64,000 nt of DNA. Origin: Streptomyces sp. 150FB. GTDB taxonomy: Bacteria > Actinomycetota > Actinomycetes > Streptomycetales > Streptomycetaceae. The notes below the pieces were generated by a model that worked only from the letters and a program-made list of their open reading frames with translations, was not told where the DNA came from and ran no database searches. Both the position numbers and the translations under genes were made by a program. The stretch is from NCBI RefSeq assembly GCF_000818195.1, contig NZ_JTHL01000001.1, positions 9,452,381 to 9,516,380 of the forward strand, written 5' to 3'. Numbering within the stretch: position 1 is the stretch's first letter; each line of letters opens with the position of its first letter. Positions 20,587-56,566 of this stretch are shown in pieces.

Positions 20587-21863
20587 GACGGTGGCGCGCG
20601 GCCCTGACGGGCCCGGTCGGCCGGCCGGTGACCGCGGGGTGCCTGGTGGTCGCCTCCGCCGTGTTCCTGGTGACCGTTCCGCTGTTCCGGGGCTTCTTCG
20701 ACGTCGGTGTCTACTACGGCACCGTCGGCGACTGGGTCCACCACGGCGGCCGGATCTACGACTACCTCAGCCCCGGCACGACGTACGGCTTCACCTACCC
20801 GCCGTTCGCCGCCGTGGTCATGCTGCCGATGGCCCTCGTGTCCTGGCCCGCGGCGGTCGCCGTCAGCATCGCGCTGAGCGTCGTCGCCTCGGCGCTGCTG
20901 CTGCACTGGCTGGTGGGTCCGGTGATCCGGCGCGAGGGGTGGTGCAGGTGGTTCGCCTTCGTCGTGGCGGGCTGCCTGTTCGCCTTGTTCGAACCGGTCC
21001 GCGACACCTTCAGCTTCGGGCAGGTGAATCTGCTGCTCGTCGCGCTCGTCTTCGCCGACGCGCGGCTGCTGGCCACCGGGCGCGGCCGCTACGCGGGGAT
21101 CGGTATCGGCCTGGCCTCGGCGATCAAGCTCACCCCCGCGCTGTTCATCGGCTATCTGCTGATCACAGGACGCAGACGGCAGGCCGCCACCGCCACGGCG
21201 ACAGCCGCCGCCGTTTCGCTCCTGGCCGCGCTGCTCGACCCCGGGGCCTCCCGTACGTTCTGGACCGAGGCGCTGTGGGACACCGACCGCGTCGGCTCGC
21301 TCAGTTATGTCTCCAACCAGTCGCTCCAGGGAGTCGTGGCCCGGCTCGGACCGGACAGCGGCGGGCACGCCCTGTGGCCGGTGTGCGTGCTCGTGGTCCT
21401 GGCCGTCTGGGCGTACCGCGCCCGTGCGGCCGTACGCGGCGGTGACGACGCCGCAGGATTCGCGCTCACGGCGCTGGCCGCGTGCCTCGTCAGCCCGGTG
21501 ACCTGGGTGCACCACCTGGTCTGGGTGATCCCTGCGTTCGTGATGCTGGGCGACACCGCGCTGCGCCGCCGCCACCGTGGCCTGCTGGCGCTGTGCGCCG
21601 CGGTCTACGTGATCCTGTGCAGCAGCGTGGTCTGGCTGTGGCGGTGGGACTCGACGGGCCTGGGCGCGTTCCTCGGCGCCAACACCTACGTATGGATCAC
21701 CCTCGGACTGCTGCTGGCCCTGCCGCCCCGCACCCGGGACGGCCTCGACGGCCCAGGACCCGCCCCGGGGCCGGGGAGGTCCGTACCTGCCGTGCGCCCG
21801 GATCTGGGAAAGTGGAGCCATGCCGGTCATCGCACTCACCGAACTCGTCGACCAACTCCTTGA
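20583..21863 (+). CDS. GT87 (DUF2029) family membrane glycosyltransferase
   Basis: 426-residue polytopic protein. The GT87 features are a first loop with YYGTVGDWVHHGGRIYDY and FTYPPFAAVVMLP, then GQVNLLLVALVFADARL and AIKLTPALF. Members transfer mannose from polyprenyl-phosphomannose to lipid or polysaccharide acceptors. The GTG start overlaps the stop of the MptB-like gene (GTGA), so the two are translationally coupled. The C-terminal 15 codons overlap the start of the deformylase gene by 44 nt. The same frame is open far upstream, but that part is the shadow of two minus-strand genes. Confidence 0.8.
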   Translation: MRRWRAALTGPVGRPVTAGCLVVASAVFLVTVPLFRGFFDVGVYYGTVGDWVHHGGRIYDYLSPGTTYGFTYPPFAAVVMLPMALVSWPAAVAVSIALSVVASALLLHWLVGPVIRREGWCRWFAFVVAGCLFALFEPVRDTFSFGQVNLLLVALVFADARLLATGRGRYAGIGIGLASAIKLTPALFIGYLLITGRRRQAATATATAAAVSLLAALLDPGASRTFWTEALWDTDRVGSLSYVSNQSLQGVVARLGPDSGGHALWPVCVLVVLAVWAYRARAAVRGGDDAAGFALTALAACLVSPVTWVHHLVWVIPAFVMLGDTALRRRHRGLLALCAAVYVILCSSVVWLWRWDSTGLGAFLGANTYVWITLGLLLALPPRTRDGLDGPGPAPGPGRSVPAVRPDLGKWSHAGHRTHRTRRPTP

Positions 21864-41860: not shown

Positions 41861-44239
41861 ATGACCACAGAGGAAACCGGACAGGCCGGCGCTGTGCCGC
41901 CCAGCCGTCGCAGCGTTCTGGCGGCCGGAGGAGCCGGACTCGGCGCGCTCGCCCTGGGACTGGCGTTGCCGCAGGGTGTGGCCTCCGCCGCGCCGCGCCG
42001 GGGCCGGGGGCCATCGCCTTCCGGCTTCGTCGATCCGACCATCGGCACCCAGGTGGATCACGGCAAGACGTCCCCCTTCGCCGGTGTGCCGTTCGGCATG
42101 ACGCAGTGGTCACCCTCCACGTCGGCTCCGGCCACGAAGGGGGTCGCACCGTATCTGTACGGAGACAGCACCCTCGTGGGATTCCGCGGATCGCACTGGC
42201 CGAGCGGCAGCGCGATGCAGGACTACGGCAGCGTCACACTGATGCCCCTGCTGGACACGCTGCGCCCCACACCGGAAGAACGGGCCGTGGCCTTCCGGCA
42301 CCAGGACGAGTCGGCGTCGCCCTCGTACTACCGGGTACGGACGGCGGACGGGATCACCAGCGAACTGACCGGCACGGCCCGCGCCGGATTCCTGCGTTTC
42401 ACCTTTCCCTCCGCCGATCAGCGGTATCTGGTGGTCGACTCCGACGCCGCCTACGAGCCCAGCGGGCAGCCGCCCCAGGGCGAGGGATGGATTCAGGTCC
42501 TTCCCGAGCGGCGGGAGATCGTCGGGTGCAATCCGGTCCACCGGCTCTACCAGGGGGCGGGTGAGACAGCCAGGCTGAGCGGGTACTTCGTCGTACGGTT
42601 CGAGGAGACTCCCACCGAGTACGGCACATGGAATCTCGGGGAACAGCCGCAGCCCGGTGCGAAAACCGCGTCCGACCGGCCCGGTGCCTATGCCCGCTTC
42701 GCCGGGGGCGGCACCAGCAGCCTGCTCGTCACCGTCGGCACCTCGTTCGTCAGCGTCGAGGGCGCCCGCGCGAACCTCGACGCCGAGATCCACGGCTGGG
42801 ACTTCGACGGCGTGCGTACGACCGCCAGGCGCGCCTGGGACGAGGCGCTGGGCCGCATCGAGGTCACCGGGGGCAGCAGCGATCAGCGGACGGTCTTCAC
42901 GACCGCGCTCTATCACAGCATGTTGCTGCCACGCCTGTTCAGCGATGTCGACGGTTCCTGCCCCGCGTTCGACACAGGTGAGATCGTGCGCGCCACCCGT
43001 CCCCGGTACATGGACTTCTCCATGTGGGACACCTTCCGCGCCGTGCATCCGCTGCTCGCCCTCGTACAGCCCGAACGGGTCGACGACATGGCGCAGTCGC
43101 TGACCGACATGGGCACCGAGGGAGGTTTCCTGCCCATCTTCCCGATGTGGAACAACTACACGGCGGAGATGATCGGCGATCATGTGACCGCGACCCTGGT
43201 GGACACGTACCTCAAGGGCTTCAGGGGCTTCGACATCAAAACCGCGTACCGCCTCATGCGGCAGAACGCCTACGTCGTGCCCGAACAGGACCAGTACCTG
43301 CTCGGCAAGGGGCGCAGGGGGCTCGCCAGCTACCTCGAATACGGTTACATCCCGCTGGAGGACCCGGTCGCCGACTCCTTCCACAAGGGCGAGCAGGTCT
43401 CCCGCACACTGGAGTACGCGTACGACGACTTCACCCTCAGCCGGCTCGCGCGGAAGCTCGGACACCAGGACGACGCCAAGGATCTGACGCGGCGTGCGGG
43501 CTGGTACCGCAACGCCATCGATCCCACTACCAAGGCGGCGCGCGGCCGCCACGAGGACGGCTCCTGGGTGACACCGGCCGACCCGCTCGCCACCCAGACG
43601 TGGATCACGGAATCGACCCCGTGGATCTACACCTCCTTCGTTCCGCACGACCCGGCCGGCCTGGCGAAACTGCTCGGGGGCCGCGACGCCGTGCGGGACC
43701 GGCTCAGCACGACGTTCGAGAACAGCGCGAAGACCGGGTTCACCGGCGCCTATTACGATCACGGGAACGAACCAAGTCACCACGTGAGCTACCTCTTCGA
43801 CCATGTCGGCGCGCCCCACCTCACCCAGAAGTGGGTTCGCCGCCTCATGGATACCGCGTACAGCCCGACACCTGACGGCCTGCTCGGTGACGACGACGCG
43901 GGTCAGACATCGGCCTGGTTCGTGTTCAGCGCCGTCGGCCTGTATCCGGTGTGTCCGGGAGTGCCGTACTACGCGATCGGCAGCCCGCTGTTCGACACGG
44001 CCACCATGCGGGTCAGTTCCGGCGGCCGTGAGCGTTCGTTCACGGTCGTGGCCGCCGACAACTCGCCCGAGAACGTCTACATCCAGGACGCGCGGCTCAA
44101 CGGCAGGCCGCTCGGCCGCCCCTGGCTCAGCCACGCGGAAGTCGTCGCCGGCGGCGTTCTCACCCTTCGTATGGGCGCCCGGCCCAACACCCGCTGGGGC
44201 AGCGACGCACGTGACGCGCCTCCGTCGATGAGTCTCTGA
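41861..44239 (+). CDS. Tat-exported GH92 alpha-mannosidase
   Basis: 792-residue family-92 exo-alpha-mannosidase. Twin-arginine signal (PSRRSVLAAGGAGLGALAL) then the beta-sandwich and (alpha/alpha)6 domains. Signature segments: FVDPTIGTQVDHGKTSPFAG, VPFGMTQWSP, FSMWDTFRAVHPLL, GGFLPIFPMWNNYTAEMIGD, LEYAYDDFTLSRLA, NEPSHHVSYLFD, GDDDAGQTSAWFVFSAVGLYPVCPGVPYYAIGSP. The Ca-dependent inverting mechanism of the family is expected, with Asp residues in GDDDAG and Glu in NEPSHH. Substrate is likely mannan or N-glycan mannose outside the cell. The upstream LacI-type operator suggests sugar induction. No other mannan genes are adjacent. Confidence 0.92.
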   Translation: MTTEETGQAGAVPPSRRSVLAAGGAGLGALALGLALPQGVASAAPRRGRGPSPSGFVDPTIGTQVDHGKTSPFAGVPFGMTQWSPSTSAPATKGVAPYLYGDSTLVGFRGSHWPSGSAMQDYGSVTLMPLLDTLRPTPEERAVAFRHQDESASPSYYRVRTADGITSELTGTARAGFLRFTFPSADQRYLVVDSDAAYEPSGQPPQGEGWIQVLPERREIVGCNPVHRLYQGAGETARLSGYFVVRFEETPTEYGTWNLGEQPQPGAKTASDRPGAYARFAGGGTSSLLVTVGTSFVSVEGARANLDAEIHGWDFDGVRTTARRAWDEALGRIEVTGGSSDQRTVFTTALYHSMLLPRLFSDVDGSCPAFDTGEIVRATRPRYMDFSMWDTFRAVHPLLALVQPERVDDMAQSLTDMGTEGGFLPIFPMWNNYTAEMIGDHVTATLVDTYLKGFRGFDIKTAYRLMRQNAYVVPEQDQYLLGKGRRGLASYLEYGYIPLEDPVADSFHKGEQVSRTLEYAYDDFTLSRLARKLGHQDDAKDLTRRAGWYRNAIDPTTKAARGRHEDGSWVTPADPLATQTWITESTPWIYTSFVPHDPAGLAKLLGGRDAVRDRLSTTFENSAKTGFTGAYYDHGNEPSHHVSYLFDHVGAPHLTQKWVRRLMDTAYSPTPDGLLGDDDAGQTSAWFVFSAVGLYPVCPGVPYYAIGSPLFDTATMRVSSGGRERSFTVVAADNSPENVYIQDARLNGRPLGRPWLSHAEVVAGGVLTLRMGARPNTRWGSDARDAPPSMSL

Positions 44240-44477: not shown

Positions 44478-44531
44478 ATGATCGCCATGATCACCGCGCT
44501 TGTCTCCTCCCGGGGCGCGGACCGCGTCTGA
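44478..44531 (+). CDS. 17-residue leader ORF upstream of GNAT gene
   Basis: ATG behind a near-perfect ribosome site (GAGAGGAGGG, 8 nt) encodes MIAMITALVSSRGADRV and stops 43 nt before the probable GTG start of the acetyltransferase gene. The strong site with so short an ORF suggests a translated leader controlling the downstream gene. Alternatively it could mark a frameshifted original N-terminus of that gene. Confidence 0.45.
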   Translation: MIAMITALVSSRGADRV

Positions 44532-44574
44532 CCCCGGAGCGGACACAGGCGCCTTCACCGGAAGTGCCTTGACC

Positions 44575-45519
44575 GTGGAACAGAACGACCTGACCATGCG
44601 TCCGATCACCGGACGCGAAGAACTCGACCTCTTCTGCCAACTGCCGTACGTCCTCAACGAGGAACTGGCGGACGACCTTGCCGCCGGCCGTCGACGCCCC
44701 GAATGGATGTGGGTCGCCCTGCGCGGTGACCGACTGCTGGCCAGGGCCGCCTGGTGGGGCCGGCAAGGCGGCGACGTACCGCTCATCCTGGATGTCCTCG
44801 ACGTCGAGGACAGCGCCCCGGGTCCCGATCGCGTGGACATCGGGGTGCGACTTCTGCGCGCCGCGACGGCAACCGCACTCCCGAACGGTTCGCCTCCTCC
44901 TGACTACAGCCGTTTCGTCCCGCCGGACTGGCGCGAGAACGCGGGAACCAGACAGCCGGTCGAGGACCGCATGACAGCGTTGGAACGGGTCGGTGCCCGG
45001 CTCTTCGTCGAACGGCTGCGTCTGGAATGGCGTCCGGAATCGCCGGTTCCCGAGCCCGGCGGACGCCTCGCGTTCCGGGGAGTCCACGACGCCGAGGAGC
45101 TCGTGGCGCTGATGGCGTTGGTGCTGGACGGGACACTGGACGCCCATGGCCGTGACGACCTGACCCGGATGTCCGTCCACGAAGCGGCGGTCAAGCAGTA
45201 CGACGAGGAACTCGCGCGTTACACGAGCCCCCGGGACTGGTGGCGGATCGCGACACTGCCCGATGGGGAGCCGGTGGGGTTCGTCATACCGGCCCGCAAC
45301 GACTACAACCCGATCATCGCCTACATCGCGGTCCTGCCCGCGCACCGTGGCAACGGCTACATCGACGACATCCTCGGCGAGGGCACCCGCGTCCTCGCCG
45401 AACAGGGCGTTCCCCGCATCCGAGCGGCCACGGACCTCGGCAACGTCCCCATGGCGAACGCCTTCCGGCGCGCCGGATACAGCAATTTCGAGCGGGAGAT
45501 CAATATGACCTGGAGATGA
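44575..45519 (+). CDS. GNAT-family N-acetyltransferase, two-domain
   Basis: 314 residues from GTG (GGAAG site 10 nt upstream). A TTG at 44500 and an ATG at 44596 are alternatives. The N-terminal part (about 1-165) resembles a degenerate GNAT half (WMWVALRGDRLLARAAWWG). The C-terminal part (about 185-314) carries the acetyl-CoA motif AVLPAHRGNGYIDDILGEG and the ATDLGNVPMANAFRRAGY tail. Tandem GNAT proteins usually have one active half. The acceptor is unknown. Preceded by the leader ORF and followed by paired hairpins. Confidence 0.83.
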   Translation: MEQNDLTMRPITGREELDLFCQLPYVLNEELADDLAAGRRRPEWMWVALRGDRLLARAAWWGRQGGDVPLILDVLDVEDSAPGPDRVDIGVRLLRAATATALPNGSPPPDYSRFVPPDWRENAGTRQPVEDRMTALERVGARLFVERLRLEWRPESPVPEPGGRLAFRGVHDAEELVALMALVLDGTLDAHGRDDLTRMSVHEAAVKQYDEELARYTSPRDWWRIATLPDGEPVGFVIPARNDYNPIIAYIAVLPAHRGNGYIDDILGEGTRVLAEQGVPRIRAATDLGNVPMANAFRRAGYSNFEREINMTWR

Positions 45520-45571: not shown

Positions 45572-45617
45572 GCGCGCCGGTCGTACGGAGGGTCAGGTCT
45601 CCGTACGACCGGCGCGC
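45572..45617. terminator. 19-bp perfect hairpin overlapping the end of the debranching-type gene
   Basis: GCGCGCCGGTCGTACGGAG and its exact complement around an 8-nt loop that contains the TGA of the convergent gene. Lies 3 nt from the previous hairpin, so each convergent operon meets its own terminator. Confidence 0.75.
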
Positions 45618-47605
45618 ACCGCTGTGAGCATTGCCAGCGGTGTCGAGGCAGCCCACGCCTGGGGGGAGTTGGCGTGGGGATACGGAATCGGGCCCTGGCC
45701 CCTCTCGCGCGGGTAGCCCGCGATGACCTCCGGAAGCCGATGACCGTAATGCGACGCGGCGGCGAGCAGCCCGGCAGCCAGAGTCTCGGTCTGTTCACGC
45801 ATCCCGTAGCGGGCCAGGCCCAGTGCGATGATCGCGTTGTCGTGCGGCCAGATGCTGCCCCGGTGGTAGGACAGCGGGTGATACGGGGGTTGCCCCGACG
45901 CGAGCGTGCGGATACCCCAGCCGGAGAAGAAGTCCGGTTCCAGCAGTCGCCGGCCGACAGCCCGGGCGCGGTCCTCGTCGAGTATGCCCGACCAGAGCAG
46001 ATGCCCCGCGTCGGAAGCGAGGGTGCCGGCGGGCCGGCCGGCCCCGTCCAGGGCGAGCGCGGGGAATCCCTGGTCGTCGGGGCCCCCGGCAGGCAGCCAG
46101 AAGTCCCGCTGGAATCGCTTCCGCAGGCGCGCTGCCGCGTCCTCCAGTCGCTCCGCCCAGCCGGGGTCCCGCCACACGGTACGGGCGAGGTTCGCGGTGC
46201 GCCGGAGTGCGTCGTAGGCGTAGCCCTGAGCTTCGGCCACGGCGATGGCGCCGGTGAGCTGGGTACCGTCGCGGAAGCAGACGGCGCCTGCGGAGTCCTT
46301 CCAGTTCTGGTTGGCCAGACCCTGTTCGTGAGCCTCATAGACGAGATAGCCGCGGCTTCCAAGTCCGCCGTCGTGGAACATCCAGTCGACCGCGGCACGA
46401 GCGTGGCCCTCCAGCCGCCGGGCGACCGCGGGGTCTCCGGTCTGTGCGGCGTGGGCGTGGAGCAGAACCAGGAACAACGGGGTGCTGTCCACCGAGCCGT
46501 AGTAACGCCCGTACGGCACCTGCCCGAAGTGGGCCAGTTCGCCGTGCCGGACCTCGTGGACGATCTTGCCGGGCTGGGCGACCCGGTCCGGGAGGTACCC
46601 GGTGGCCTGGGTCGCGGCGAGGGCGAGCAGCGTGGCCCTGGCTGTTTCGGGACGGTAGGGCAGTGCGAAGAAAGAGGTCAGAGCCGAGTCCCGGCCGAAC
46701 AGGGTGAGGAACCAGGGCACGCCCGCCCCAGGGACCTGGAGTGCCTCACCGTCGGGGCCGGTGGCGGGGACCCGTAGCCGGGCCAGGTCGGCGATGCCCT
46801 GGGCGCAGGCCGAGGCGAGTTCGACGGCGAGGTCGGTCTGGACCGTACGGTCGGCCGGGTCCGGCAGCGGAAGCGGCGCACCCCGGGTGTACGGCTCGTT
46901 TGCCAGACGTGTCCGGCGACGCACCTGGCCGGGGGTGCTCGGCAGATCAGCCAGGGGCGGGGCTCCGTGCGCCTCCGCCGTGACGTTCAGGGTGAGTTCG
47001 GCGCGGGCGTGGGCGGGCAGTTCGAGCTGCCAGACGAGGCTGCGAGCGGTGTTTCCGGGTGACGCGCTGCCGGTCGTGCCGACCAGGGTAGGCGGCGGAT
47101 GTGCGGTGACAGTGGTACCCGAGTGCCAGTCGTCGCGGCGGTAGCCGAACTCCAGGCCGTCGGGGCGCTCCAGAACAGCGCGCGTGGCACCGGGTTTGGA
47201 GTAGGTACGTCGGTCGGAGCGCAGCTCGAACTGGTCGGTGAAATCGGCATCAGCCTCGACGGCGATGGTGACACAGGTGGCTCGGGAGACGTTACTGACC
47301 ACGGTGATCGTCTCGGTGAGTCGGCCCTCGTAGAGGGCCTGCCGACGGAACAACGTACAGGAGGGCGGTTCGTCGCGGGTGCCCGGCGGGGTGAGGACCG
47401 TGGCGGCGTCGCTCTCGCCGTCACCGGCCGGTACCAGTACGGCCGGTGCGACGCCGTCCACGGTGAGCTGCCAGCGGCTGAGGTGCCGGGCGTCGCGTAC
47501 GAACATGCCGTCGGGTGCGGTGCCCCGGCTCCCTTCGATGTCACCCTGGGCGTCGAGTACCGCGAACGTCCCGGCATGCACCAGGAGTTGACGCTTCTCC
47601 CTCAT
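45593..47605 (-). CDS. glycogen-debranching-type (amylo-alpha-1,6-glucosidase-like) glycoside hydrolase
   Basis: 670 residues. N-terminal beta-rich glycogen-debranching N-domain (FAVLDAQGDIEGSRGTAPDGMFVRDARHLSRW) followed by an (alpha/alpha)6 catalytic barrel (VPWFLTLFGRDSALTSFFAL, FGQVPYGRYYGSVDSTPLF, NQNWKDSAGAVCFRDG, YHRGSIWPHDNAIIALGLARYG). The acidic residues in GRDS and KDS positions and SVDSTP are the usual catalytic candidates. No signal peptide, so it acts on imported or internal glycoside. The ATG overlaps the upstream stop (ATGA). Last gene of a four-gene minus-strand operon. Confidence 0.83.
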   Translation of the reverse strand: MREKRQLLVHAGTFAVLDAQGDIEGSRGTAPDGMFVRDARHLSRWQLTVDGVAPAVLVPAGDGESDAATVLTPPGTRDEPPSCTLFRRQALYEGRLTETITVVSNVSRATCVTIAVEADADFTDQFELRSDRRTYSKPGATRAVLERPDGLEFGYRRDDWHSGTTVTAHPPPTLVGTTGSASPGNTARSLVWQLELPAHARAELTLNVTAEAHGAPPLADLPSTPGQVRRRTRLANEPYTRGAPLPLPDPADRTVQTDLAVELASACAQGIADLARLRVPATGPDGEALQVPGAGVPWFLTLFGRDSALTSFFALPYRPETARATLLALAATQATGYLPDRVAQPGKIVHEVRHGELAHFGQVPYGRYYGSVDSTPLFLVLLHAHAAQTGDPAVARRLEGHARAAVDWMFHDGGLGSRGYLVYEAHEQGLANQNWKDSAGAVCFRDGTQLTGAIAVAEAQGYAYDALRRTANLARTVWRDPGWAERLEDAAARLRKRFQRDFWLPAGGPDDQGFPALALDGAGRPAGTLASDAGHLLWSGILDEDRARAVGRRLLEPDFFSGWGIRTLASGQPPYHPLSYHRGSIWPHDNAIIALGLARYGMREQTETLAAGLLAAASHYGHRLPEVIAGYPRERGQGPIPYPHANSPQAWAASTPLAMLTAVRAGRTET

Positions 47606-48984
47606 GACGGGCACCGTCCGGTGCCGGCCGCGGCGAGCAGGTCGAGGGCGACAGCGGCGGTCCAGCTGAAGCTGGTGGTGCCGCGCGCGGCCCCGGTGTA
47701 CGGGTCGACGTACTCCGCGAATCCGGAGGCGCCGGCCGAGGCGAGGACCGAGGTGGCGAGGTCGTCGGCTCGGTCGGTGGCGCCGTACTGCCGCAGCCCG
47801 CGTTCCAGCGCCCAGTTGATGTTGAACCAGGCCGGGCCACGCCAGTAGCGCGACGAGTCGTACGCGGTGCCCAGCAAGTCGTAACTGGGGACGAGGGCGG
47901 TGGTGGAGCCGAGTCCGAAGTGTTCCCCGGAGACGGTACGCAGCAGCGCCCCGACGATGTCCGAGGGCAGCCCCGGGACCAGCAGCGGCAGCAGCCCGGC
48001 GACGCTCCTGTCATGGATCAGGCGGTCCGTGCGCACGTCGCGGCTGAGGAACAGCCCAGCTTTCGGGGCCCAGAGCCGTTCCACCAGTTGCCCGGTCAGT
48101 TCCTTCGCACGGGTGAGGTGCGGTTCCGGATCCCGTCCGAGGGCTTCGGCGATGGCCCCGAGGGCGTGCTCGGAGGCGATGTACAGCGAGTTGAAAGCGG
48201 GATCCTCGACGACGAACGCGTGGTCCGCGGCCCGATCCAGATAGCCGGCTTCGCGGTAGTCGGCGGCGAGCCGGACGTAGCGCCGGTAGTCCATGTCGGT
48301 GGGCCGGTCGGCGGCCTCTCCGTGGGTGAGGTCGGCGCGGCGGAACGACGATGCAGGGGCGGGTGTGATCCGGGAGAGCGGACCGTCCCAGCAAGGGCTG
48401 TTGTCCATACCCGGTTCCCAGGGGTGGACCACCGAGGCGAGTCCGTGCCCACCGAGATCCCGGTGCTCGGCCAGATACCCGTGCCAGGCGGTCAGCCTGA
48501 GGTAGATCCTGGTCAGAAAACCCCGGGCATGCGAAGCCCCTGGGTCTGCCTGGTGCACCAGCCAAGCGGCCAGTGCGTGAACCGGCGGCTGGACGATGCC
48601 GGAGGTCTCCAGTGAGCGGGGCGCTCCCGCCGCGGCGCCGGCCGTGGTCGAGCGCCAGAAGTCCGGGCTGGGGAAGTAGGCGTCGAGCGGGACGGCCGGG
48701 TTGAAGACGATGTGAGGGACCCGTCCATCGGCCCACTGTGCGCCGAAGAGCGACTCGAGCTCGCGCTGGGCGCGGCGGGGCGACAGATGGCGGAGCCCGA
48801 TCGCGATGAATGCGGAGTCCCAACTCCACTGGTGTGGATAGAGGGTGTGCGAGGGGACGGTGGAGGCGCCGGTCCAGTTGCTGAACAAAACACGCGCGGC
48901 GGCGTCGCGCAGGGTCCCGTTGGGGTCGGATGCGGCCGGGTTTGCTGAGAGGGGAGTCATCGGCATTCTGAGAACGGAGGTCAC
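47602..48984 (-). CDS. GH63/MGH1-like glycoside hydrolase
   Basis: 460 residues of (alpha/alpha)6 type: PHQWSWDSAFIAIGLRHLSP with the catalytic-Asp region, DGRVPHIVFNP, VHPWEPGMDNSPCWDGPLSR, and RGPAWFNINWALERGL. These are the marks of the GH63-related group that includes mannosylglycerate/glucosylglycerate hydrolases and glucosidases. The GTG start overlaps the isomerase stop (GTGA). An ATG 18 nt inside lacks a ribosome site. No signal peptide. Substrate is probably a small alpha-glycoside delivered by the divergent ABC importer (inference). Confidence 0.82.
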   Translation of the reverse strand: MTSVLRMPMTPLSANPAASDPNGTLRDAAARVLFSNWTGASTVPSHTLYPHQWSWDSAFIAIGLRHLSPRRAQRELESLFGAQWADGRVPHIVFNPAVPLDAYFPSPDFWRSTTAGAAAGAPRSLETSGIVQPPVHALAAWLVHQADPGASHARGFLTRIYLRLTAWHGYLAEHRDLGGHGLASVVHPWEPGMDNSPCWDGPLSRITPAPASSFRRADLTHGEAADRPTDMDYRRYVRLAADYREAGYLDRAADHAFVVEDPAFNSLYIASEHALGAIAEALGRDPEPHLTRAKELTGQLVERLWAPKAGLFLSRDVRTDRLIHDRSVAGLLPLLVPGLPSDIVGALLRTVSGEHFGLGSTTALVPSYDLLGTAYDSSRYWRGPAWFNINWALERGLRQYGATDRADDLATSVLASAGASGFAEYVDPYTGAARGTTSFSWTAAVALDLLAAAGTGRCPS

Positions 48985-49781
48985 GCGCCGGACCTGTGAA
49001 GAAAGGCGGGGATGGAACGGACAGCCTGGACCGGCTCGCCGGTGAGCCTGCATTCGGCGGCGAGATAGCCGCTGAAGCCGATGGTGTGCAAGGCGCCGAG
49101 CCAGGCCGGCCAGTCGAGGTGGCCGGCGCCGGGCTGGAAGCGGTTGGAGTCGCTGACCTGGGCGTGCCCGATGTAGGGAGCGGCGGCCAGGATGGCTGCC
49201 GCCGGGTCGGCCTCCTCGATGTTCATGTGGTAGCTGTCGATGCCGATCTTCACCGATTCGAGCCCGACCGCGCAGATCAGGTCGGCGGCCTGTTCGAGGC
49301 GGTTGACCATGTGGTCCTCGTACCTGTTGAGCGGTTCGAGGAACAGGCGCACGCCTTCGCTGCGGGCGTGCTGGCCGAGCTCGGTGAGCCCTTCGAGCAG
49401 AACCGTGCGCTCCTCCTCCTCGCCGCGGGGCGGTTCGAAGGGCGGGAGCCTCCGCGAGAACATTCCGTACGAGGCGGGGGTCTGGGCGCCGAGTCCGCCG
49501 AGCTCGGCGATCACCGAGAGCTGCGACTTCATCTGGACGATGGCGTCGCGCCGCAGGTCCTCGTCGAAGGCGCCGAAGAAGTGGAGCATGTCGACGCAGA
49601 CGGTGGGCATCACCACACCTCCGGCGTGCGCCCGGCGCAGTTCGGGCAGCCGGCTTTGGAAATGCAGATCCCCCTTGGCGCGCAACTCGATACCGTCAAA
49701 TCCGGCATTCTGGGCGAATTCCCATTTGTCCCGCAGGGTTTCCCCGGGCAGCAACTGCTCCTGGCAAGCGGTCTTGAGCAT
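48981..49781 (-). CDS. sugar isomerase/epimerase, xylose-isomerase-like TIM barrel
   Basis: 266 residues with the metal-site pattern of tagatose/psicose-3-epimerase and inosose/hydroxypyruvate isomerase relatives: FLEPLNRYEDH (Glu), GIDSYHMNIEE (Asp, His), IGHAQVSDSNRFQPGAGHLDW (His) and AAECRL (Glu). The AP_endonuclease_2 fold is clear. It should interconvert a keto-sugar or its C3 epimer. Start behind AAAGG, 12 nt after the dehydrogenase gene, and overlapping the GH63-like gene at its end. Confidence 0.87.
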   Translation of the reverse strand: MLKTACQEQLLPGETLRDKWEFAQNAGFDGIELRAKGDLHFQSRLPELRRAHAGGVVMPTVCVDMLHFFGAFDEDLRRDAIVQMKSQLSVIAELGGLGAQTPASYGMFSRRLPPFEPPRGEEEERTVLLEGLTELGQHARSEGVRLFLEPLNRYEDHMVNRLEQAADLICAVGLESVKIGIDSYHMNIEEADPAAAILAAAPYIGHAQVSDSNRFQPGAGHLDWPAWLGALHTIGFSGYLAAECRLTGEPVQAVRSIPAFLHRSGA

Positions 49782-49793
49782 CAGGAGGACCTT

Positions 49794-50840
49794 TCAGAAT
49801 TCCAGGACGACCTGGAGGGCGTCGGCGGGACGCTCGTCCAGCAGTGTGTAGGCGTCGGCGGCGTCGGTGATCGGAACGAGGTGGCTGACCAGTGAGGTCA
49901 CGTCCACGCGGTCCTGGGCGACGAGTGAGAGGAACGTCTGCTGAAGGCGTTCCACGGTCCAGCGGTTCGACAACTGCGCCGGCACACCGCCGATCTGCGA
50001 GCAGACAATCTGGACCCGGTTGTGGTGGAACTCGTCGCCGAGCCGCAGTCCGATGCCGTCCCCCTGGTAGAAGCCGGAGGCCACCACCCGTCCACCCACG
50101 CTGACGGAGCGGATCGCCTCGTGGAGCGCCGGGTAGACGCCGCTGATCTCGATGGCGCCGTCGGCACCCCGGCCGCCGGTGGCCGCACGGATGTCCTCGG
50201 CGACTGTGCTCGAGCGGGCGTCGAGGGTGGCGGTCGCCCCGTACGTCCGTGCGGTTTCGAGTCGTCCTTCGAGTGCGTCCACGGCGGTGACCCGGGCGCC
50301 GTTGAGCTGCGCGAGACGGGTGGCGAGCAGGCCGATGACGCCCTGCCCGAACACCGCGAGGTCCTCGCCGACATGGATGTCGGCGGCGAGCACGGCGTTG
50401 TACGCGATGGCGCCGACCCTTGCGAAGGTACCGGCGAGCGGTTCGAGTCCCTCGGGCAGTGTGTGTCCGATCAGGCGCTCGGCGGGGACGATGCCCTCGC
50501 TGCGGTGGCCCCAGATGCCCCAGACCAGATCGCCCACGGACGGCAGTCCGGCGGTGCCGAGGAGTTCGGGAGAGACTTCGGTCACCTCGCCGGTCTCGGA
50601 GTAACCCCAGCCGACGACCGGGTATTCGATGCCGGCCGCACCGTCGCGGAAGATCCTCGCCTCGGCGTCCCAGGTGCGCGTCAGATATGGGTTGGTGCCC
50701 CGGTACGCGGTGAGTTCCGTACCCGCCGAGACGCCTGAGAAGCGGGTTCGCACCCGAAGATGACCGGCAGGCAGGGGGGCACTCGCGTGCTCGGCGACTT
50801 CGACCTGTCGTGGGCCGGTGAACTGGACGACGCGTTCCAC
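49794..50840 (-). CDS. medium-chain dehydrogenase/reductase, non-canonical zinc type
   Basis: 348 residues, MDR fold: N-terminal GroES-like part (LRVRTRFSGVSAGTELTAYRG), VVGWGYSETGEV, and Rossmann site AVFGQGVIGLLATRLAQLNGARV followed by VTAVDALEGRL. The catalytic-zinc Cys of alcohol dehydrogenases (CGxD) is replaced by SAGTE, and the four-Cys structural zinc loop is missing, as in the bacteriochlorophyllide-dehydrogenase-like MDR group. First gene of the minus-strand operon. GTG start with GGAG 8 nt upstream. Probably oxidises a sugar hydroxyl feeding the isomerase. Confidence 0.85.
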   Translation of the reverse strand: MERVVQFTGPRQVEVAEHASAPLPAGHLRVRTRFSGVSAGTELTAYRGTNPYLTRTWDAEARIFRDGAAGIEYPVVGWGYSETGEVTEVSPELLGTAGLPSVGDLVWGIWGHRSEGIVPAERLIGHTLPEGLEPLAGTFARVGAIAYNAVLAADIHVGEDLAVFGQGVIGLLATRLAQLNGARVTAVDALEGRLETARTYGATATLDARSSTVAEDIRAATGGRGADGAIEISGVYPALHEAIRSVSVGGRVVASGFYQGDGIGLRLGDEFHHNRVQIVCSQIGGVPAQLSNRWTVERLQQTFLSLVAQDRVDVTSLVSHLVPITDAADAYTLLDERPADALQVVLEF

Positions 50841-50903
50841 GTGGAGCTCCGAGAAGTTGGCACAGAGGGCTCGACCGAGCAGGTCTTCCCCTTACTTAGG
50901 ATG

Positions 50904-50953
50904 AAGATATCTCAGAGTTATGTCTTGTCAATACGCAAAAGTAGTGTTGTGAT
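50904..50953. promoter_or_regulatory. overlapping divergent promoters of the glycoside operons
   Basis: Minus strand: TTGACA (50932-50927), 17 nt, TATCTT (50909-50904), a near-consensus promoter for the dehydrogenase operon. Plus strand: TTGTCA (50925-50930), 17 nt, TGTGAT (50948-50953). The -35 boxes share the same bases, so RNA polymerase should occupy only one at a time. AGATATCT (50905-50912) and a direct repeat AAGTAGTGT (50939-50947, 50971-50979) are candidate ROK repressor sites. Confidence 0.6.
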
Positions 50954-50991
50954 GCCGTGACACCCAGCGTAAGTAGTGTGAGGAACAAGCC

Positions 50992-52398
50992 ATGCTCAAG
51001 TGGAACCGCCGGTCGAGGACGACCGCGGCGGGCGGCCTGGCGGCGGTGATGGCGGCGGGCCTGCTGGCCGGCTGTGCCGCCGGCAACAACGCTTCCCATC
51101 CGGACCGGCTGACCATCTGGTCGGAGCTGAACTCCGATCCGCAGATCGCCGACACGAACAAGATTGTTGACGGGTTCGAGAAGGCGACCGGTGTCAAGGT
51201 GAAGCTGGTCGGCATCAATGAGAACCAGCTGCCGCAGCTGATCATGTCGGCGGCCGCGGCGGGCACCCTGCCCGATGTCATCGGCGGCGTACCGATCGGC
51301 CAGGTCTGGCAGATGTACACCAACGGATTGCTGAACACGAAGGTCGCCGCACAGGTGGTGGACTCCCTCGGCCGAGGCACCTTCGACGCCAACGCCCTGG
51401 CGCTGACGAGCGACAAGTCGAAGCCGCTGGCCGTGCCCTCCGACGCCTGGCTCCAGCTTCTGGTCTACCGCAAGGACCTGTTCGCCAAGGCGGGCCTGTC
51501 AGCACCCGATACGTACACAAAACTCGTAGACGCGGCAAAAGCCATAAAAAAGACCGGCTTGCAAGAAGGGGCGTCGGTCTCCACCGACCCCTCCGACGTC
51601 TTCACACAGCAGAGCTTCGAATCGATCGCCCTGGCCAACAACTGCCAGTTGGTGAACAGTGCCGCGAAGATCACCCTGAACTCCCCGGCCTGCCGGGCCG
51701 CCTACAACCTGTATGACAAGCTGGGAAAGACCTACGGCGTCACCGGCACCCAGACCGTCGACTCGACCCGCGCCACTTACTTCGCCGGCCAGTCCGGCAT
51801 GGTCCTCTGGTCGACCTCCCTGCTCGACGAACTCGCCGGGCTGCGCGACGACGCCTTGCCGAGTTGCCCCCAGTGCGTGCACGACAAGAAGTTTCTGTCG
51901 GCCAACAGCGGTGTGGTCACCGCGCTGTCCGGTCCTGACAACGCAAAACCCGCCCCTTTCGGCGAAGTCGCCTCGTGGGCCGTCACCAAGACCGCCAACA
52001 CCAGTGGTGCCAAAGAGTGGATCCAGTATGTGATGGCAGGCGGATACGAGAAGTGGTTCGGCATGTCCGCCGAAGGGCAACTCCCGGTCCGGCACGGCAC
52101 AGCGACCGATCCGCAGAAATATGTGAACGCCTGGCGCAGGAGCGACATCGGCGTCGACACCCGCGAGCCGCTGGACAAGGCGTATCCCGCAGGACTCCTC
52201 GACCAACTTGTCGCCGGCGTCAACACCATGCAGCGCTGGGGGTTCAAGGAGGGCCAGGGAGCTCTCGTCGGCGCCACCCAGGGCCAACTGCCCATCCCCA
52301 AGGCGATCAGCGCGATGACCAACGGCCAGACCAACCCGGACCAGGCCGCAGAGCAGTCGGACCAAGACGTAACCGCCCTGCAGAAATCCCTCCAGTAG
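50992..52398 (+). CDS. sugar ABC transporter substrate-binding lipoprotein
   Basis: 468-residue family-1 extracellular sugar-binding protein. Lipoprotein signal with lipobox LLAGC (about residue 28), then LTIWSELNSDPQIADTNKIVDGFEKATGVKVKLV, LPDVIGGVPIGQVWQM, and FGEVASWAVTKTANTSGAKEW. Captures the unknown substrate outside the membrane for the two permeases that follow. GAGG ribosome site 6 nt upstream of ATG. First gene of the plus-strand operon. Confidence 0.9.
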   Translation: MLKWNRRSRTTAAGGLAAVMAAGLLAGCAAGNNASHPDRLTIWSELNSDPQIADTNKIVDGFEKATGVKVKLVGINENQLPQLIMSAAAAGTLPDVIGGVPIGQVWQMYTNGLLNTKVAAQVVDSLGRGTFDANALALTSDKSKPLAVPSDAWLQLLVYRKDLFAKAGLSAPDTYTKLVDAAKAIKKTGLQEGASVSTDPSDVFTQQSFESIALANNCQLVNSAAKITLNSPACRAAYNLYDKLGKTYGVTGTQTVDSTRATYFAGQSGMVLWSTSLLDELAGLRDDALPSCPQCVHDKKFLSANSGVVTALSGPDNAKPAPFGEVASWAVTKTANTSGAKEWIQYVMAGGYEKWFGMSAEGQLPVRHGTATDPQKYVNAWRRSDIGVDTREPLDKAYPAGLLDQLVAGVNTMQRWGFKEGQGALVGATQGQLPIPKAISAMTNGQTNPDQAAEQSDQDVTALQKSLQ

Positions 52399-52431
52399 CA
52401 GGCCATCGGCCGCCCCCGTCGAGGAACCCAC

Positions 52432-53403
52432 ATGAGCACAGCACCGAGCGTCGCGAAGAAGCGGCGTGAACTCACCACCAGTCAGCGGGAGAACCGCGCA
52501 GGGCTGGGCTTTGTGACCCCCACCTTTGTGGTGGTACTGGTCGTCGTCATCGTCCCGATCCTGTGGACCGTGCTACTGGCCTTTCAGAACGCGAAGCTGG
52601 TGGACATCCACGGGATGGGGATATTCGGGAACTGGTCGCTGCACAACTTCAGCCAGGTCTTCGGCTCTCCCGGTTTCTGGTCCAGTCTGGTCACCACCCT
52701 CGCCTACACCGTCGGCGGCACCGCCGGCTCGGTGATACTCGGCCTGATCGCCGCACTCGCCCTGCGCAAGCCGTTCCGCGGCAGAGGTCTGCTGCGCAGC
52801 ACGATGCTGCTGCCGTACGTCGCGCCGGTCGTCGCGATGTCCTTCGTCTGGCAGACCGCGCTCAGCCCGCAGTACGGCATCGTCAACCACTGGGGCGAGA
52901 AGCTCTTCGGCTGGAAGAACCCGATCGCGTTCCTGTCCACCCGCTCCTACGAAGTCGACCTGTTCGGCTGGCACTTCGGTATCCCGCTGGCGCTGCTGAC
53001 CGTCATCGCCTTCGAGACCTGGCGGTACTTCCCGTTCGCCTTCCTCTTCCTGCTGGCCCGGCTCCAGGCCGTCCCGGACGGGCTGGAGGAAGCGGCACGG
53101 GTCGACGGCGCCGCGCCCACCCAGCAGTTCCGATACATCCTGCTGCCCCAGCTGATGCCGGTCATCGCCCTGCTGTCGGTACTGCGTTTCATCATGACGT
53201 TCAACAAGTTCGACGACGTCTTTCTGCTCACCGGCGGCGGCTCGGGGACCAACGTGGTAGCGGTGCGGGTGTACGACTTCCTCACCGCCAACTTCGACGT
53301 CGGAGCCGCGGCGGCGCAGGCGGTCGTCCTCGCCGTCATCCTGATGGCACTGCTCGGCATCTACTTCAAGTTCTTCGCCAAGAAGGTTCAGGAGGAGGCG
53401 TGA
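52432..53403 (+). CDS. sugar ABC transporter permease (MalF type)
   Basis: 323 residues with six membrane helices and the EAA loop EEAARVDGAAPTQQFRYILLPQL. N-terminal cytoplasmic basic stretch (KKRRELTTSQRENRAG). Follows the binding-protein gene by 33 nt and ends in TGATG, sharing one base with the start of the next permease. Confidence 0.9.
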   Translation: MSTAPSVAKKRRELTTSQRENRAGLGFVTPTFVVVLVVVIVPILWTVLLAFQNAKLVDIHGMGIFGNWSLHNFSQVFGSPGFWSSLVTTLAYTVGGTAGSVILGLIAALALRKPFRGRGLLRSTMLLPYVAPVVAMSFVWQTALSPQYGIVNHWGEKLFGWKNPIAFLSTRSYEVDLFGWHFGIPLALLTVIAFETWRYFPFAFLFLLARLQAVPDGLEEAARVDGAAPTQQFRYILLPQLMPVIALLSVLRFIMTFNKFDDVFLLTGGGSGTNVVAVRVYDFLTANFDVGAAAAQAVVLAVILMALLGIYFKFFAKKVQEEA

Positions 53404-54275
53404 TGTCGATGTCCCGCACCCAGTTCGAGGAACGCCTCTTCGGCGGCCTGCGCAGACTGACCATCGTCGGTCTCGTCCTCATCACGGTCGTGCCGTTCTA
53501 CTACATGGTGCTGTTGTCGGTGAAACCGATCGACGCGCTTCTGCTGAACCCCGGGTCGCTCTGGGTCTCGGCCAAGGATTTCACGCTCAGCACGTACCAG
53601 AACGTCCTGCGGCCGACGTCCGGGGGCGGTCAGGGATTCCTGCGGTTCCTGGGCAACTCGGCGCTGGTGTCACTGGGTACGGTGGCCCTCACTCTGCTGG
53701 CCGCGGTGCCGGGCGCGTACGCCATCAGCAGGCTGAAATTCTTCGGCAGCCGCCAGGTCGGCGCCATGTTCCTGGCCGTCTACCTTTTCCCCTCGACACT
53801 GCTCGCGGTACCGCTGTTCGTGATGTTCGCGAAACTCGGCCTCTCCGGGAGCCTGGTGGGCCTGGCGATCGTCTACATCGCGCAGACCGTACCGGTGTCC
53901 ATCTATATGATGCGGAACTACTTCACCACGATCCCGATCAGCGTGGAGGAGGCGGCCGCGCTCGACGGAGCCACCCGGATGCAGACGGTACGCAAGATCG
54001 TACTGCCGCTCGCACTGCCGTCACTGATAGCAACTGGCCTCTACGTCTTCATGATCGCCTGGAATGAGTTCCTGTTCGCTCTGCTCTTCCTGGCGGCGAG
54101 CCCCAGCAAGTGGACCGTCTCCCTGGGGCTCCAGCAGTTGGACAATGGCGTGGAGATCCCGACCACCGTTCTGATGGCCGGATCAGTGGTGCTGACCATC
54201 CCCGTGGTCGTGCTGTTCTACGCTGCGGAGAGGTTGCTGACGGAGGGTCTCACCAGCGGGGCCGACAAGGGATAG
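53403..54275 (+). CDS. sugar ABC transporter permease (MalG type)
   Basis: 290 residues beginning MSMSRTQFEERLFGG, six helices, EAA loop EEAAALDGATRMQTVRKIVLPLA. Start overlaps the previous stop by 1 nt behind AGGAGGAGG. No ATPase gene in the operon, so a shared MsiK-like ATPase probably energises it. Confidence 0.9.
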   Translation: MSMSRTQFEERLFGGLRRLTIVGLVLITVVPFYYMVLLSVKPIDALLLNPGSLWVSAKDFTLSTYQNVLRPTSGGGQGFLRFLGNSALVSLGTVALTLLAAVPGAYAISRLKFFGSRQVGAMFLAVYLFPSTLLAVPLFVMFAKLGLSGSLVGLAIVYIAQTVPVSIYMMRNYFTTIPISVEEAAALDGATRMQTVRKIVLPLALPSLIATGLYVFMIAWNEFLFALLFLAASPSKWTVSLGLQQLDNGVEIPTTVLMAGSVVLTIPVVVLFYAAERLLTEGLTSGADKG

Positions 54276-54364
54276 ATCCTCGGCCGCCGAGCGATACAGC
54301 GGGTGCGGGACCTCAGCGATGCGGTCCCGCCCCGACGGAACATGAATCAGGAGCACATACGACC

Positions 54365-55567
54365 ATGCCGGCCAGTCAGGCGACCGCGGGACATCTGCTG
54401 CGGTTGATCCGCAGTGGGCAGGCCACCACCCGCGGCGAACTTCAGTCCGCCACCGGCCTGTCCCGATCGACCATCGGCAGCCGTCTCGACCAGCTCTTCG
54501 GAGCCGGCTGGCTGCGCGAGGCGACCACCGGGGCCTCCACCGGCGGACGCCCCTCGGTGCGCCTGGAATTCGACCCTTCACACGCCGTGGTGATCGCAGT
54601 CGACCTGGAGACCCGGCACAGTCGGGCCGCGGTACTCGGCCTGGACGGCCGGATCCTCGCCGAGCGCACCGAACCGCTGCTCATCGCGGACGGCCCCGAC
54701 CTGGTGCTCGACGCCCTGGCGAGCTGGTTCCCGGGACTGCTGGAGAAGGCCGGGGTCGAACCGTCCCGGGTGTGCGGGATCGGGCTCTCCGTCCCGGGAC
54801 CGGTCGACTGGCCGCACGGCCTGGTGGTGCAGCCGCCGATCATGCCTGGCTGGGACGAGTACCCCGTTCCGGCCCGGATGCAGGAGGCTTACGCCCGTCA
54901 TGTGCCCGCCGCGAGCACTCAGGTGCCGGTGCTCGTCGACAACGACGCCAATCTGATGGCATACGCCGAACAGCGCCGCTTCTACCCGAGTTGCTCGGCG
55001 TTCGTCCTGGTCAAGGTGTCGACCGGGATCGGTGCCGGTGTGGTCGTCGAGGGCGTGCCTTACCGCGGCATCGACGGTGGCGCGGGCGACATCGGCCATA
55101 TCCGGCTGCACGACAGGACCGACGCACTGTGCATGTGCGGCTCCTACGGCTGCCTGGCGGCGGTGGCGAGCGGCGGCGCGATCGCCGGCCAACTCGCGGC
55201 CGCCGGCATAGAGACCACATCCGGATCGGATGTACGACGGCATCTGGCGGCCGGTCAGCCGGACGCCGTACGGCTGGCCCGCGAGGCGGGACGCCGGGTC
55301 GGCGAGGTCCTGGTGACTGTGGTGACCCTGCTCAACCCGGGCGTGCTCGTCCTCGCGGGCGACCTGGCCGGCAATCCGTTCCTCACCGGGGTACGTGAGT
55401 TGCTCTACCAGCGCGCGATGCCCCGGACCACGGCCCACCTCAATGTGGTCACCTCCCGGCTCGGCGACGCGGCCGCGCTCAACGGCGCCGCGGCCATGGT
55501 GGTCGAGCATCTGTACTCGCCCGACACCGCCGACGACCGGCTGCTCGCCCTGAGCGGCGGCGTCTGA
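54365..55567 (+). CDS. ROK family transcriptional regulator
   Basis: 400 residues: N-terminal winged HTH (LLRLIRSGQATTRGELQSATGLSRSTIGSRLDQLFGAGWL) fused to a ROK actin-like sugar-kinase fold. Sugar-site and zinc motifs visible: VDNDANLMAYAEQR, GIGAGVVVEGVPYRGIDGGAGDIGHI and CMCGSYGCLAAVAS. In the zinc motif the Glu of CxCGxxGCxE is Ala, which fits a sensor more than a kinase. Lies within the ABC operon, so it is the probable local repressor responding to the imported sugar or its product. ATG gives MPASQATAGHLLR; ribosome site weak. Confidence 0.88.
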   Translation: MPASQATAGHLLRLIRSGQATTRGELQSATGLSRSTIGSRLDQLFGAGWLREATTGASTGGRPSVRLEFDPSHAVVIAVDLETRHSRAAVLGLDGRILAERTEPLLIADGPDLVLDALASWFPGLLEKAGVEPSRVCGIGLSVPGPVDWPHGLVVQPPIMPGWDEYPVPARMQEAYARHVPAASTQVPVLVDNDANLMAYAEQRRFYPSCSAFVLVKVSTGIGAGVVVEGVPYRGIDGGAGDIGHIRLHDRTDALCMCGSYGCLAAVASGGAIAGQLAAAGIETTSGSDVRRHLAAGQPDAVRLAREAGRRVGEVLVTVVTLLNPGVLVLAGDLAGNPFLTGVRELLYQRAMPRTTAHLNVVTSRLGDAAALNGAAAMVVEHLYSPDTADDRLLALSGGV

Positions 55568-55639
55568 CACCCGGCCCGCCCCGCACCGCTGCCCGAACCA
55601 CGACGTCGGCCCCAGCCAGGGCCCCAACCGGAGACTGAC

Positions 55640-56566
55640 GTGTCGTACACCCACCGTTCCGACTCACCTTCCGACTCACCGCTCCGTTCCGCCGACGCGG
55701 CTCCCGCCGCCCTGCGCGTCGGACTGGTCGGCGCCGGGCCATGGGCCCGGACGATGCATGCGCGCATGCTCGCCGCCGGTCCGGAAACAGCGCTGGCCGC
55801 CGTGTGGGCCCGCCGTCCGGAGGCGGCTCGGCAGGTCGCCGCGGAGTACGGGGGAGTGGTGGCCGGCTCGTTCGAGGAACTACTCGACCTCAGTGAGGCG
55901 GTGGCCTTCGCGGTGCCGCCCGCAGTCCAGGCCGAACTCGCGGTGCGCGCGGTGCGGGCCGGAAAACCGGTCCTGCTGGAGAAACCCCTGGGCCCGGACC
56001 TCGCCTCGGCCCGCCGGGTCGCCGACGCCGTCGCCGAACACGGTGTCGTCTCACAACTCGTACTGACCAAGCGCTACCACCCGGTCACCCGCGAGTTCCT
56101 GGTCCGAGCCAGGGGTGCGGAAGTCACCGGGGCACGCTCCTGCTACCTGCACGGCGCCTTCCTGGGCGGGGACTTCGCCACGCCCTGGCGTCTCGAACAG
56201 GGAGCGCTGCTGGATCTCGGCCCGCATCTGCTGGATCTGCTGGACACCGCCGTGGGACCGATCGCAACCGTCCGGAGCACCGGTGACCCTCGCCGCTGGA
56301 TCGAACTGACCTGTGAACACACCAACGGCGCCGTCAGCCAGGCATCGCTGTCCGGCACGGTACGGCTCGCGGCTGCCAGAACCAGGATCGAGCTGTACGG
56401 ACCGGATGAGGAACTCGTCTACGACACGGCGGAGCTGGACCACGAGGAGTGCTGGCCCGTCCTGCGCCACGAGTTCGCCGCCGCGGTCCGCTCCGGCATC
56501 CCCGGCCCACTCGACGCGGCACGCGGACTACGCCTGCAAGAACTGATGACGATGGCGGCGGCCTGA
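55640..56566 (+). CDS. Gfo/Idh/MocA family NAD(P)-dependent sugar dehydrogenase
   Basis: 308 residues. N-terminal Rossmann site VGLVGAGPWARTMHARML, the EKPLGPDLASARRVADA motif with catalytic-type Lys, and a C-terminal alpha/beta domain ending WPVLRHEFAAAVRSG. Oxidises or reduces a cyclic sugar, inositol or glycoside hydroxyl. GTG start with GGAG upstream, last gene of the plus-strand operon. With the MDR dehydrogenase and isomerase of the divergent operon it suggests a route through a keto-glycoside. Confidence 0.87.
   Translation: MSYTHRSDSPSDSPLRSADAAPAALRVGLVGAGPWARTMHARMLAAGPETALAAVWARRPEAARQVAAEYGGVVAGSFEELLDLSEAVAFAVPPAVQAELAVRAVRAGKPVLLEKPLGPDLASARRVADAVAEHGVVSQLVLTKRYHPVTREFLVRARGAEVTGARSCYLHGAFLGGDFATPWRLEQGALLDLGPHLLDLLDTAVGPIATVRSTGDPRRWIELTCEHTNGAVSQASLSGTVRLAAARTRIELYGPDEELVYDTAELDHEECWPVLRHEFAAAVRSGIPGPLDAARGLRLQELMTMAAA

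Follow-up and report, generated by a model that had tools for sequence, protein, structure and literature searches.

A stretch of 64,000 nucleotides from Streptomyces sp. 150FB (contig NZ_JTHL01000001.1, positions 9,452,381 to 9,516,380 of the forward strand; hereafter the window) carries nine genes at positions 45593-56566 that, on balance, probably form an actinobacterial, hydrolytic version of the Escherichia coli ycjNOPQRS pathway. This reading draws on homology, conserved active-site residues, synteny and a conserved promoter element. An earlier note on this DNA, made from the sequence alone, had recognized no standard catabolic operon here. This view was not supported, as E. coli ycj has counterparts to six of the nine genes, although the two hydrolases and the regulator differ. 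We propose that a glycoside is imported and epimerised while intact, and that a GH63-like enzyme then cleaves the resulting glucosylglycerate-type product.

Organization of the nine-gene locus

All nine complete open reading frames (ORFs) were confirmed, and their Pfam matches agree with the families that the earlier note had named for this divergent system. The minus-strand operon comprises genes for a medium-chain dehydrogenase/reductase (MDR), an isomerase, the GH63-like hydrolase and a debranching-type hydrolase, in that order. The plus-strand operon encodes a binding protein, two permeases, a ROK-family regulator and a Gfo/Idh/MocA dehydrogenase (Gfo/Idh protein). A control region of 151 bp (50841-50991) separates the two. 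The tight packing described previously, with overlaps of 1 to 4 bp, was also borne out once start codons were refined. The isomerase and GH63-like genes share a 4-bp GTGA when the latter starts at GTG 48984, the GH63-like and debranching-type genes share a 4-bp ATGA with the debranching-type start at ATG 47605, and the permease genes overlap by 1 bp with the second starting at 53403. The start of the ROK gene was refined to 54365. None of the nine genes encodes an ATPase of the ATP-binding cassette (ABC) type.

Relationship to E. coli ycj proteins

The cluster proteins were compared pairwise with a database of the 11 proteins encoded by the ycj region of E. coli MG1655, which underlies all identities to Ycj proteins given in this section. 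The isomerase (48981-49781, minus strand), a xylose-isomerase-like TIM barrel, is predicted to be a YcjR-like 3-keto-glycoside 4-epimerase. The best of its 30 matches in the PDB is 6wn6, a 3-keto-D-glucoside 4-epimerase (E value 1.9e-43), with the next family following at 6e-26, and it is 36% identical to YcjR (7e-52). The protein had been described as a C3-epimerase-type isomerase; C3-epimerases are indeed its second-ranked relatives, but the nearest one acts at C4. Residues E149, D182 and H206 do not vary across the 70 aligned rows, YcjR among them (positions 146, 179 and 203). At E243 (YcjR 240), 67 rows have Glu, two have a gap and one has Asp. We take these four to be the metal-binding or catalytic residues of the superfamily.

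The MDR protein (49794-50840, minus strand; Pfam ADH_zinc_N) aligns with YcjQ over its full length (27.5% identity over 349 columns, 8e-35) and is probably a glycoside 3-dehydrogenase. It has one Cys in its entire sequence and none at what we take to be the usual position of the MDR zinc-ligand motif, where YcjQ likewise has none. This agrees with its earlier description as a non-zinc enzyme. The homology to ycj also lends support to the suggestion that a ring position of the sugar is oxidised before cleavage.

The same chemistry might instead serve another sugar, such that the MDR and isomerase convert a hexosylglycerate other than a guloside, for example a galactosyl-, allosyl- or mannosyl-glycerate, to glucosylglycerate. 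Such a role would fit the limited identities to YcjR and YcjQ, and also the breadth of the isomerase superfamily, since tagatose, psicose and ribulose epimerases are among the PDB matches. However, the isomerase aligns closely with YcjR both along the PASYGMF..RLPPFEPPR stretch and at its presumed metal ligands, and the MDR and isomerase genes travel together as they do in ycj. We therefore consider another sugar unlikely.

The importer components show the same relationship. The YcjN-like binding lipoprotein (50992-52398, plus strand; Pfam SBP_bac_8, with an LAGC lipobox) has E. coli YcjN itself as its best PDB match (8vqk, 9.9e-27), and is 27% identical to it (9e-30). The two ABC permeases of the BPD family resemble YcjO (52432-53403, plus strand; 37% over 246 columns, 1e-44) and YcjP (53403-54275, plus strand; 37% over 268 columns, 1e-53). 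The Gfo/Idh protein (55640-56566, plus strand; family assigned by Pfam) is proposed to be a 3-keto-glucoside reductase in the role of YcjS. It matches YcjS weakly (27% over 183 columns, 1e-9), and a profile search of the PDB places a sugar 3-ketoreductase, 3rbv, third. This step is the weakest link of the proposed pathway.

Two other known routes use enzymes of these superfamilies. In an oxidative deglycosylation, as in levoglucosan or C-glycoside breakdown, the TIM-barrel protein would use beta-elimination to cleave a 3-keto glycoside made by the Gfo/Idh protein. The two genes do occur together, and the Gfo/Idh protein weakly matches levoglucosan dehydrogenase and DgpA. However, the levoglucosan model scores 43.7 of the required 650 bits, none of the 30 PDB matches of the TIM-barrel protein is named a deglycosidase while YcjR is matched at 1.9e-43, and the operon holds two enzymes of glycosidase families, which together make this route very improbable. 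Catabolism of a cyclitol in the manner of the Thermotoga proteins IolG, IolM and IolO (inositol via diketo-inositol, with a keto-gluconate epimerase) is suggested by the top NCBIfam matches of the MDR (IolM), the isomerase (IolO) and the Gfo/Idh protein (IolG). These scores nevertheless fall far under the cut-offs, at 66.5 of 450, 116.6 of 300 and 55.6 of 355 bits, respectively. The IolO structure 2zvr is matched by the isomerase at 1.2e-18 compared with 1.9e-43 for YcjR, and the pocket of the GH63-like enzyme is of the glucosylglycerate type. We regard this route as extremely improbable, and a cyclitol glycoside, one of the substrates named in the earlier note, is accordingly not favoured.

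Neither the two hydrolases nor the ROK protein matches any of the 11 ycj proteins at better than E 0.3. No significant homologue of YcjM, YcjT or YcjU was found in the cluster (best E 0.37), and the ROK protein has no significant similarity to YcjW. Because YcjM, YcjT and YcjU are missing, we do not class the cluster in the ycj operon type, but only as working like it. A search of the whole genome with YcjM yielded one partial match (32% identity, residues 62-343) far from the window. In RefSeq, YcjQ, YcjR and YcjS are named D-guloside 3-dehydrogenase, 3-dehydro-D-guloside 4-epimerase and D-glucoside 3-dehydrogenase, and YcjM and YcjT are named glucosylglycerate phosphorylase and kojibiose phosphorylase.

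The two hydrolases

The GH63-like protein (47602-48984, minus strand; 460 amino acids from GTG 48984, in an ORF that opens at 49053; Pfam MGH1-like, 394 bits) matches the mannosylglycerate hydrolase of Thermus (2z07) and the glucosylglycerate hydrolase of the mycobacterium M. hassiacum (MhGgH). The comparison with characterised hydrolases that had been suggested for this protein gives 36% overall identity to MhGgH. PMC6608630 names the residues of MhGgH that hold glucose and glycerate, from which 19 positions were mapped onto the GH63-like protein, and 18 of these are kept. None of the 19 columns varies, whether among 45 rows from isomerase-bearing loci and 64 from loci that lack the isomerase (109 of 111 rows used, two being too short, with strains that recur between the sets counted twice) or among four loci from other families. 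The catalytic Asp182 and Glu419 are kept in 113 of 113 rows, repeat strains included. The sole differing position is 434, which is Gln in PMC6608630 and in chain 5ohc, but Phe in 6g3n, in the Thermus chain and in all rows.

According to that paper, glucosylglycerol and glucosylglycolate are not cleaved by MhGgH, the pocket of which closes over a small substrate (PMC6608630). This lack of activity on the two analogues makes the retained glycerate contacts informative. Glucosylglycerate-type cleavage as the final step is thus well supported by residues conserved in the alignment, as the earlier note had allowed when it listed glucosylglycerate among candidate substrates. Moreover, the GH63-like enzyme shows no sequence similarity to YcjM, the annotated glucosylglycerate phosphorylase of E. 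coli, and the same product is thus indicated by two unrelated enzymes.

The debranching-type enzyme (45593-47605, minus strand; ORF opening at 47614), predicted to be an (alpha/alpha)6 hydrolase, combines a GDE_N_bis domain with an MGH1-like catalytic domain in Pfam. A search with a 19-row profile finds a single PDB match at E <= 1e-4, the amylo-alpha-1,6-glucosidase 7vma (3.5e-102), which is also the top Foldseek hit of its AlphaFold model. The model has a mean predicted local distance difference test (pLDDT) score of 78 and confirms the fold, not the substrate. By analogy with what YcjT may do, we propose that this protein is an exo-alpha-glucosidase that acts before the GH63-like enzyme and takes an outer glucosyl unit off the substrate. 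It would then fill the place of kojibiose phosphorylase on the outer sugar.

Conservation and history of the locus

From at least 587 relatives of the GH63-like protein, the analysis used the 80 best loci, whose titles name Streptomyces in every case but one (Streptomycetaceae). All nine genes are present in the identical divergent order in 16 of these. In 58 others, hereafter reduced loci, a ROK gene directly diverges from the GH63-like and debranching-type genes without the other six. The remainder are two loci with ROK, importer and GH63-like genes, two with ROK and GH63-like genes, one with GH63-like and debranching-type genes and one with the GH63-like gene alone, on contigs of which some are short. 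The two intermediate loci that hold ROK, importer and GH63-like genes (L017 and L024) show no match to the MDR, isomerase, Gfo/Idh or debranching-type proteins.

The isomerase was detected at E <= 1e-60 in 32 of 295 genomes of the genus, this genome included. The 31 other genomes provide 32 isomerase loci, of which 28 hold all nine genes in the matching divergent order, two lie at contig edges in one genome, one lacks the debranching-type gene and one lacks the MDR, binding protein and first permease genes. This set and the set found with the GH63-like protein have some strains in common. Recurrence of the order in 16 of 80 and 28 of 32 loci indicates that the arrangement is not due to chance. 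The locus that lacks these last three genes (L136) shows an apparent deletion between the isomerase and second permease genes. The genome with two edge loci (L138 and L139) carries two diverged copies of a six- to seven-gene part, and both contigs end inside the isomerase gene. A GH63-like gene is present in 32 of 32 genomes with the isomerase versus 16 of 32 without it (Fisher p = 2.5e-6, with relatedness ignored).

Beyond the genus, the isomerase was found at E <= 1e-40 in 13 of 396 genomes of the phylum and nine of 394 of the class, counts that include this genome and genus members (two and three, respectively). Four of the six class genomes outside the genus, from two families, have MDR, isomerase and GH63-like genes diverging from importer genes, with 49-71% identity for these three proteins. 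One of these loci (L148) has all nine genes. Among the other three, two have no ROK match, and the MDR match of one (L151) is split in two pieces. Thus, the synteny that had been recommended as a check extends far beyond this strain, either partially or in full. An MDR of the YcjQ-like kind also lies inside the stretch in 10 of 12 isomerase loci from distant members of the phylum. In one of these loci (L101:5503-8733), a single ORF adjoining the YcjR-like isomerase gene fuses a HAD domain (beta-phosphoglucomutase-like) to a GH65 phosphorylase-like domain. This fusion, in YcjU-YcjT order and similar to both, appears from its sequence to be a bridge to E. coli ycj.

These distributions also bear on ordinary use of alpha-glucans or malto-oligosaccharides, with the dehydrogenases as bystanders. 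This idea is favoured by the nearest relative of the debranching-type enzyme, and by the second permease, whose top NCBIfam match is a MalG model (below its cut-off). However, bystanders are hard to reconcile with the 32 loci chosen by isomerase, 31 of which hold the MDR gene and all of which hold the Gfo/Idh gene. Of the four other-family loci with MDR, isomerase and GH63-like genes, three have no debranching-type gene, and the contacts retained by the GH63-like protein are those of MhGgH, in which the pocket shuts around a small substrate. Alpha-glucan use is therefore quite improbable.

A tree of 109 GH63-like rows was built after removal of duplicates by a quick method that gives SH-aLRT supports only and returned long-branch warnings. 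In this tree, the other-family loci without the debranching-type enzyme lie nearest the reference enzymes, 51 of 62 rows from reduced loci form one clade (support 100), and isomerase-bearing rows are spread over several branches. The simplest reading is that reduced loci arose by loss of the import and epimerisation genes. Pyruvate phosphate dikinase is encoded beyond the ROK gene in all four loci scanned, namely the reduced loci L042 (5349-8096), L005 (5260-8139) and L023 (5673-8396) and the intermediate locus L017 (1806-4625). This neighbour possibly reflects a metabolic link or just shared ancestry.

A conserved element in the divergent promoter

The control region contains a 23-bp element, TTATGTCTTGTCAATACGCAAAA, at 50918-50940 (plus strand), which is a candidate operator for the ROK protein (54365-55567, plus strand; Pfam ROK, 152 bits). 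Neither the window nor the whole 9.8-Mb genome contains another match when up to three mismatches are allowed. A first scan found the element at this threshold in 40 of the 42 divergent regions of isomerase-bearing loci that were left once identical spacers had been removed from 48, and at one or no mismatch in 55 of 60 ROK/GH63 spacers of reduced loci. The degenerate pattern used had been drawn from both locus types, which makes that comparison circular. The scan was repeated with a matrix built from isomerase-bearing loci only, and one of the 60 reduced-locus regions was dropped for runs of N. All 59 remaining spacers score above the 99th percentile of 2950 single-base shuffles, and 57 score above the maximum. 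In every case the element points toward the ROK side, as in the window, with most spacers coming from related strains.

Among 44 chosen genomes, the element occurs in 23 of 23 with the isomerase and in 10 of 10 with reduced loci, and it is absent from 10 of 11 without a GH63-like gene. By coordinates, 41 of 44 element matches fall at these clusters and three fall elsewhere. One of the three (L163:9783, contig 36 of G020) is an extra copy with one mismatch, located upstream of an aldo-keto reductase gene near a glycine-betaine-type ABC operon, which the ROK protein might also target. The other two (L164:7257 and L165:7188, in two genomes of the genus) are identical, weaker copies with three mismatches where no cluster gene was found, and are probably unrelated to the cluster.

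Because the element is common to nine-gene and reduced loci, both are probably controlled by one type of regulator, which probably responds to a compound that the two have in common; glucosylglycerate would be an example. In the cluster, both operons are probably governed by the ROK protein through a single candidate site, and the protein probably senses the shared glucoside intermediate.

Proposed pathway and substrate

In the reaction order and direction that we propose, the ABC importer would take up a D-guloside with a glycerate-type aglycone. The YcjQ-like MDR would oxidise C3 of this guloside, the YcjR-like enzyme would epimerise C4 of the 3-keto glycoside, and the Gfo/Idh protein, if it is a reductase, would reduce C3 to give the corresponding D-glucoside. 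The debranching-type enzyme would take off an outer glucosyl unit, if present, and the GH63-like enzyme would finally hydrolyse glucosyl-(1->2)-glycerate to glucose and glycerate. Our tentative suggestion for the substrate of the cluster is D-gulosyl-(1->2)-D-glycerate or gulosyl-glucosyl-glycerate, which would be undescribed molecules resembling compatible solutes; the suggestion would extend to the orphan E. coli ycj pathway, for which we know of no natural guloside. To salvage such a compound, bacteria may flip gulose to glucose on the intact glycoside, which would then be cut by glucosylglycerate hydrolases here and by phosphorylases in E. coli.

The genome encodes a protein that matches glucosyl-3-phosphoglycerate synthase at 434 bits against a cut-off of 262, which one of 14 control genomes also passes. 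In PMC11009771, one Streptomyces is cited as making glucosylglycerate both as an osmotic solute and as an extracellular metabolite. Together, these observations indicate that the substrate class exists in this niche. For YcjN, PMC11543891 reports a thermal-shift screen that gave no ligand; glucosides were not tested, and the authors do not exclude binding.

Several observations weigh against this pathway or its substrate. The GH63-like protein scores 358.1 bits with the NCBIfam glucosylglycerate hydrolase model NF047898, under the cut-off of 550. At 36% identity to YcjR, the isomerase could epimerise a different carbon. Eleven other places in the genome match YcjS at E <= 1e-10 (28-34% over parts), the Gfo/Idh gene of the cluster is not among them, and these better matches outside the cluster weaken assignment of the reductase to the YcjS role. 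No relative of the Gfo/Idh protein was found in three of the four other-family loci with MDR, isomerase and GH63-like genes; near one locus, L150, lies a gene that resembles YcjS more closely (25% over 315 columns). A GH63-like gene was not found in two of the six class loci outside the genus (L152 and L153), nor in the 12 loci from 11 distant phylum genomes, where several contigs are short. Finally, the literature searched, which covers few subscription journals, holds no paper that uses the word gulosylglycerate, and among the papers listed for related terms there was no description of this cluster either.

An epimerisation module beside a hydrolase unrelated to the E. coli phosphorylase would provide an independent hint at the aglycone of the ycj substrate, and would narrow the candidates to a small set of compounds that can be made. 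The cluster also suggests how Streptomyces could recycle glucosylglycerate-type solutes, and the promoter element offers a readout for the inducer.

Other genes in the window

Just outside the cluster, a GH92 glycoside hydrolase gene (557 bits) lies at 41861-44239 on the plus strand and adjoins an ORF with a GNAT domain (44500-45519). A 1305-amino-acid ORF at 17946-21863 (plus strand) has a GT87 glycosyltransferase domain near its end.

Comparison with known systems

The closest parallel is E. coli ycjMNOPQRSTUV-ycjW, which shares with the cluster a binding protein, two permeases, a YcjQ-like MDR, a YcjR-like epimerase and a Gfo/Idh dehydrogenase (only weakly YcjS-like in the cluster). Both also have a glucosylglycerate-cleaving enzyme, annotated in ycj and predicted here. 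In contrast, E. coli has the phosphorylases YcjM and YcjT and the phosphoglucomutase YcjU where the cluster has two hydrolases, and the repressor YcjW where the cluster has a ROK regulator. The cluster also differs in forming two diverging operons.

Like MhGgH and the Thermus mannosylglycerate hydrolase 2z07, the GH63-like enzyme belongs to this sequence family and has the catalytic Asp and Glu and nearly all of the mapped contacts. It differs from MhGgH in overall sequence and in carrying the Phe of the Thermus enzyme rather than Gln at 434, and its gene sits within an import and epimerisation operon. The debranching-type enzyme shares its catalytic domain with the amylo-alpha-1,6-glucosidase 7vma of Thermococcus gammatolerans, whereas its N-terminal region matches poorly. 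With Thermotoga IolG, IolM and IolO, the cluster shares three enzyme superfamilies, but its proteins score far below the cut-offs that define those families.

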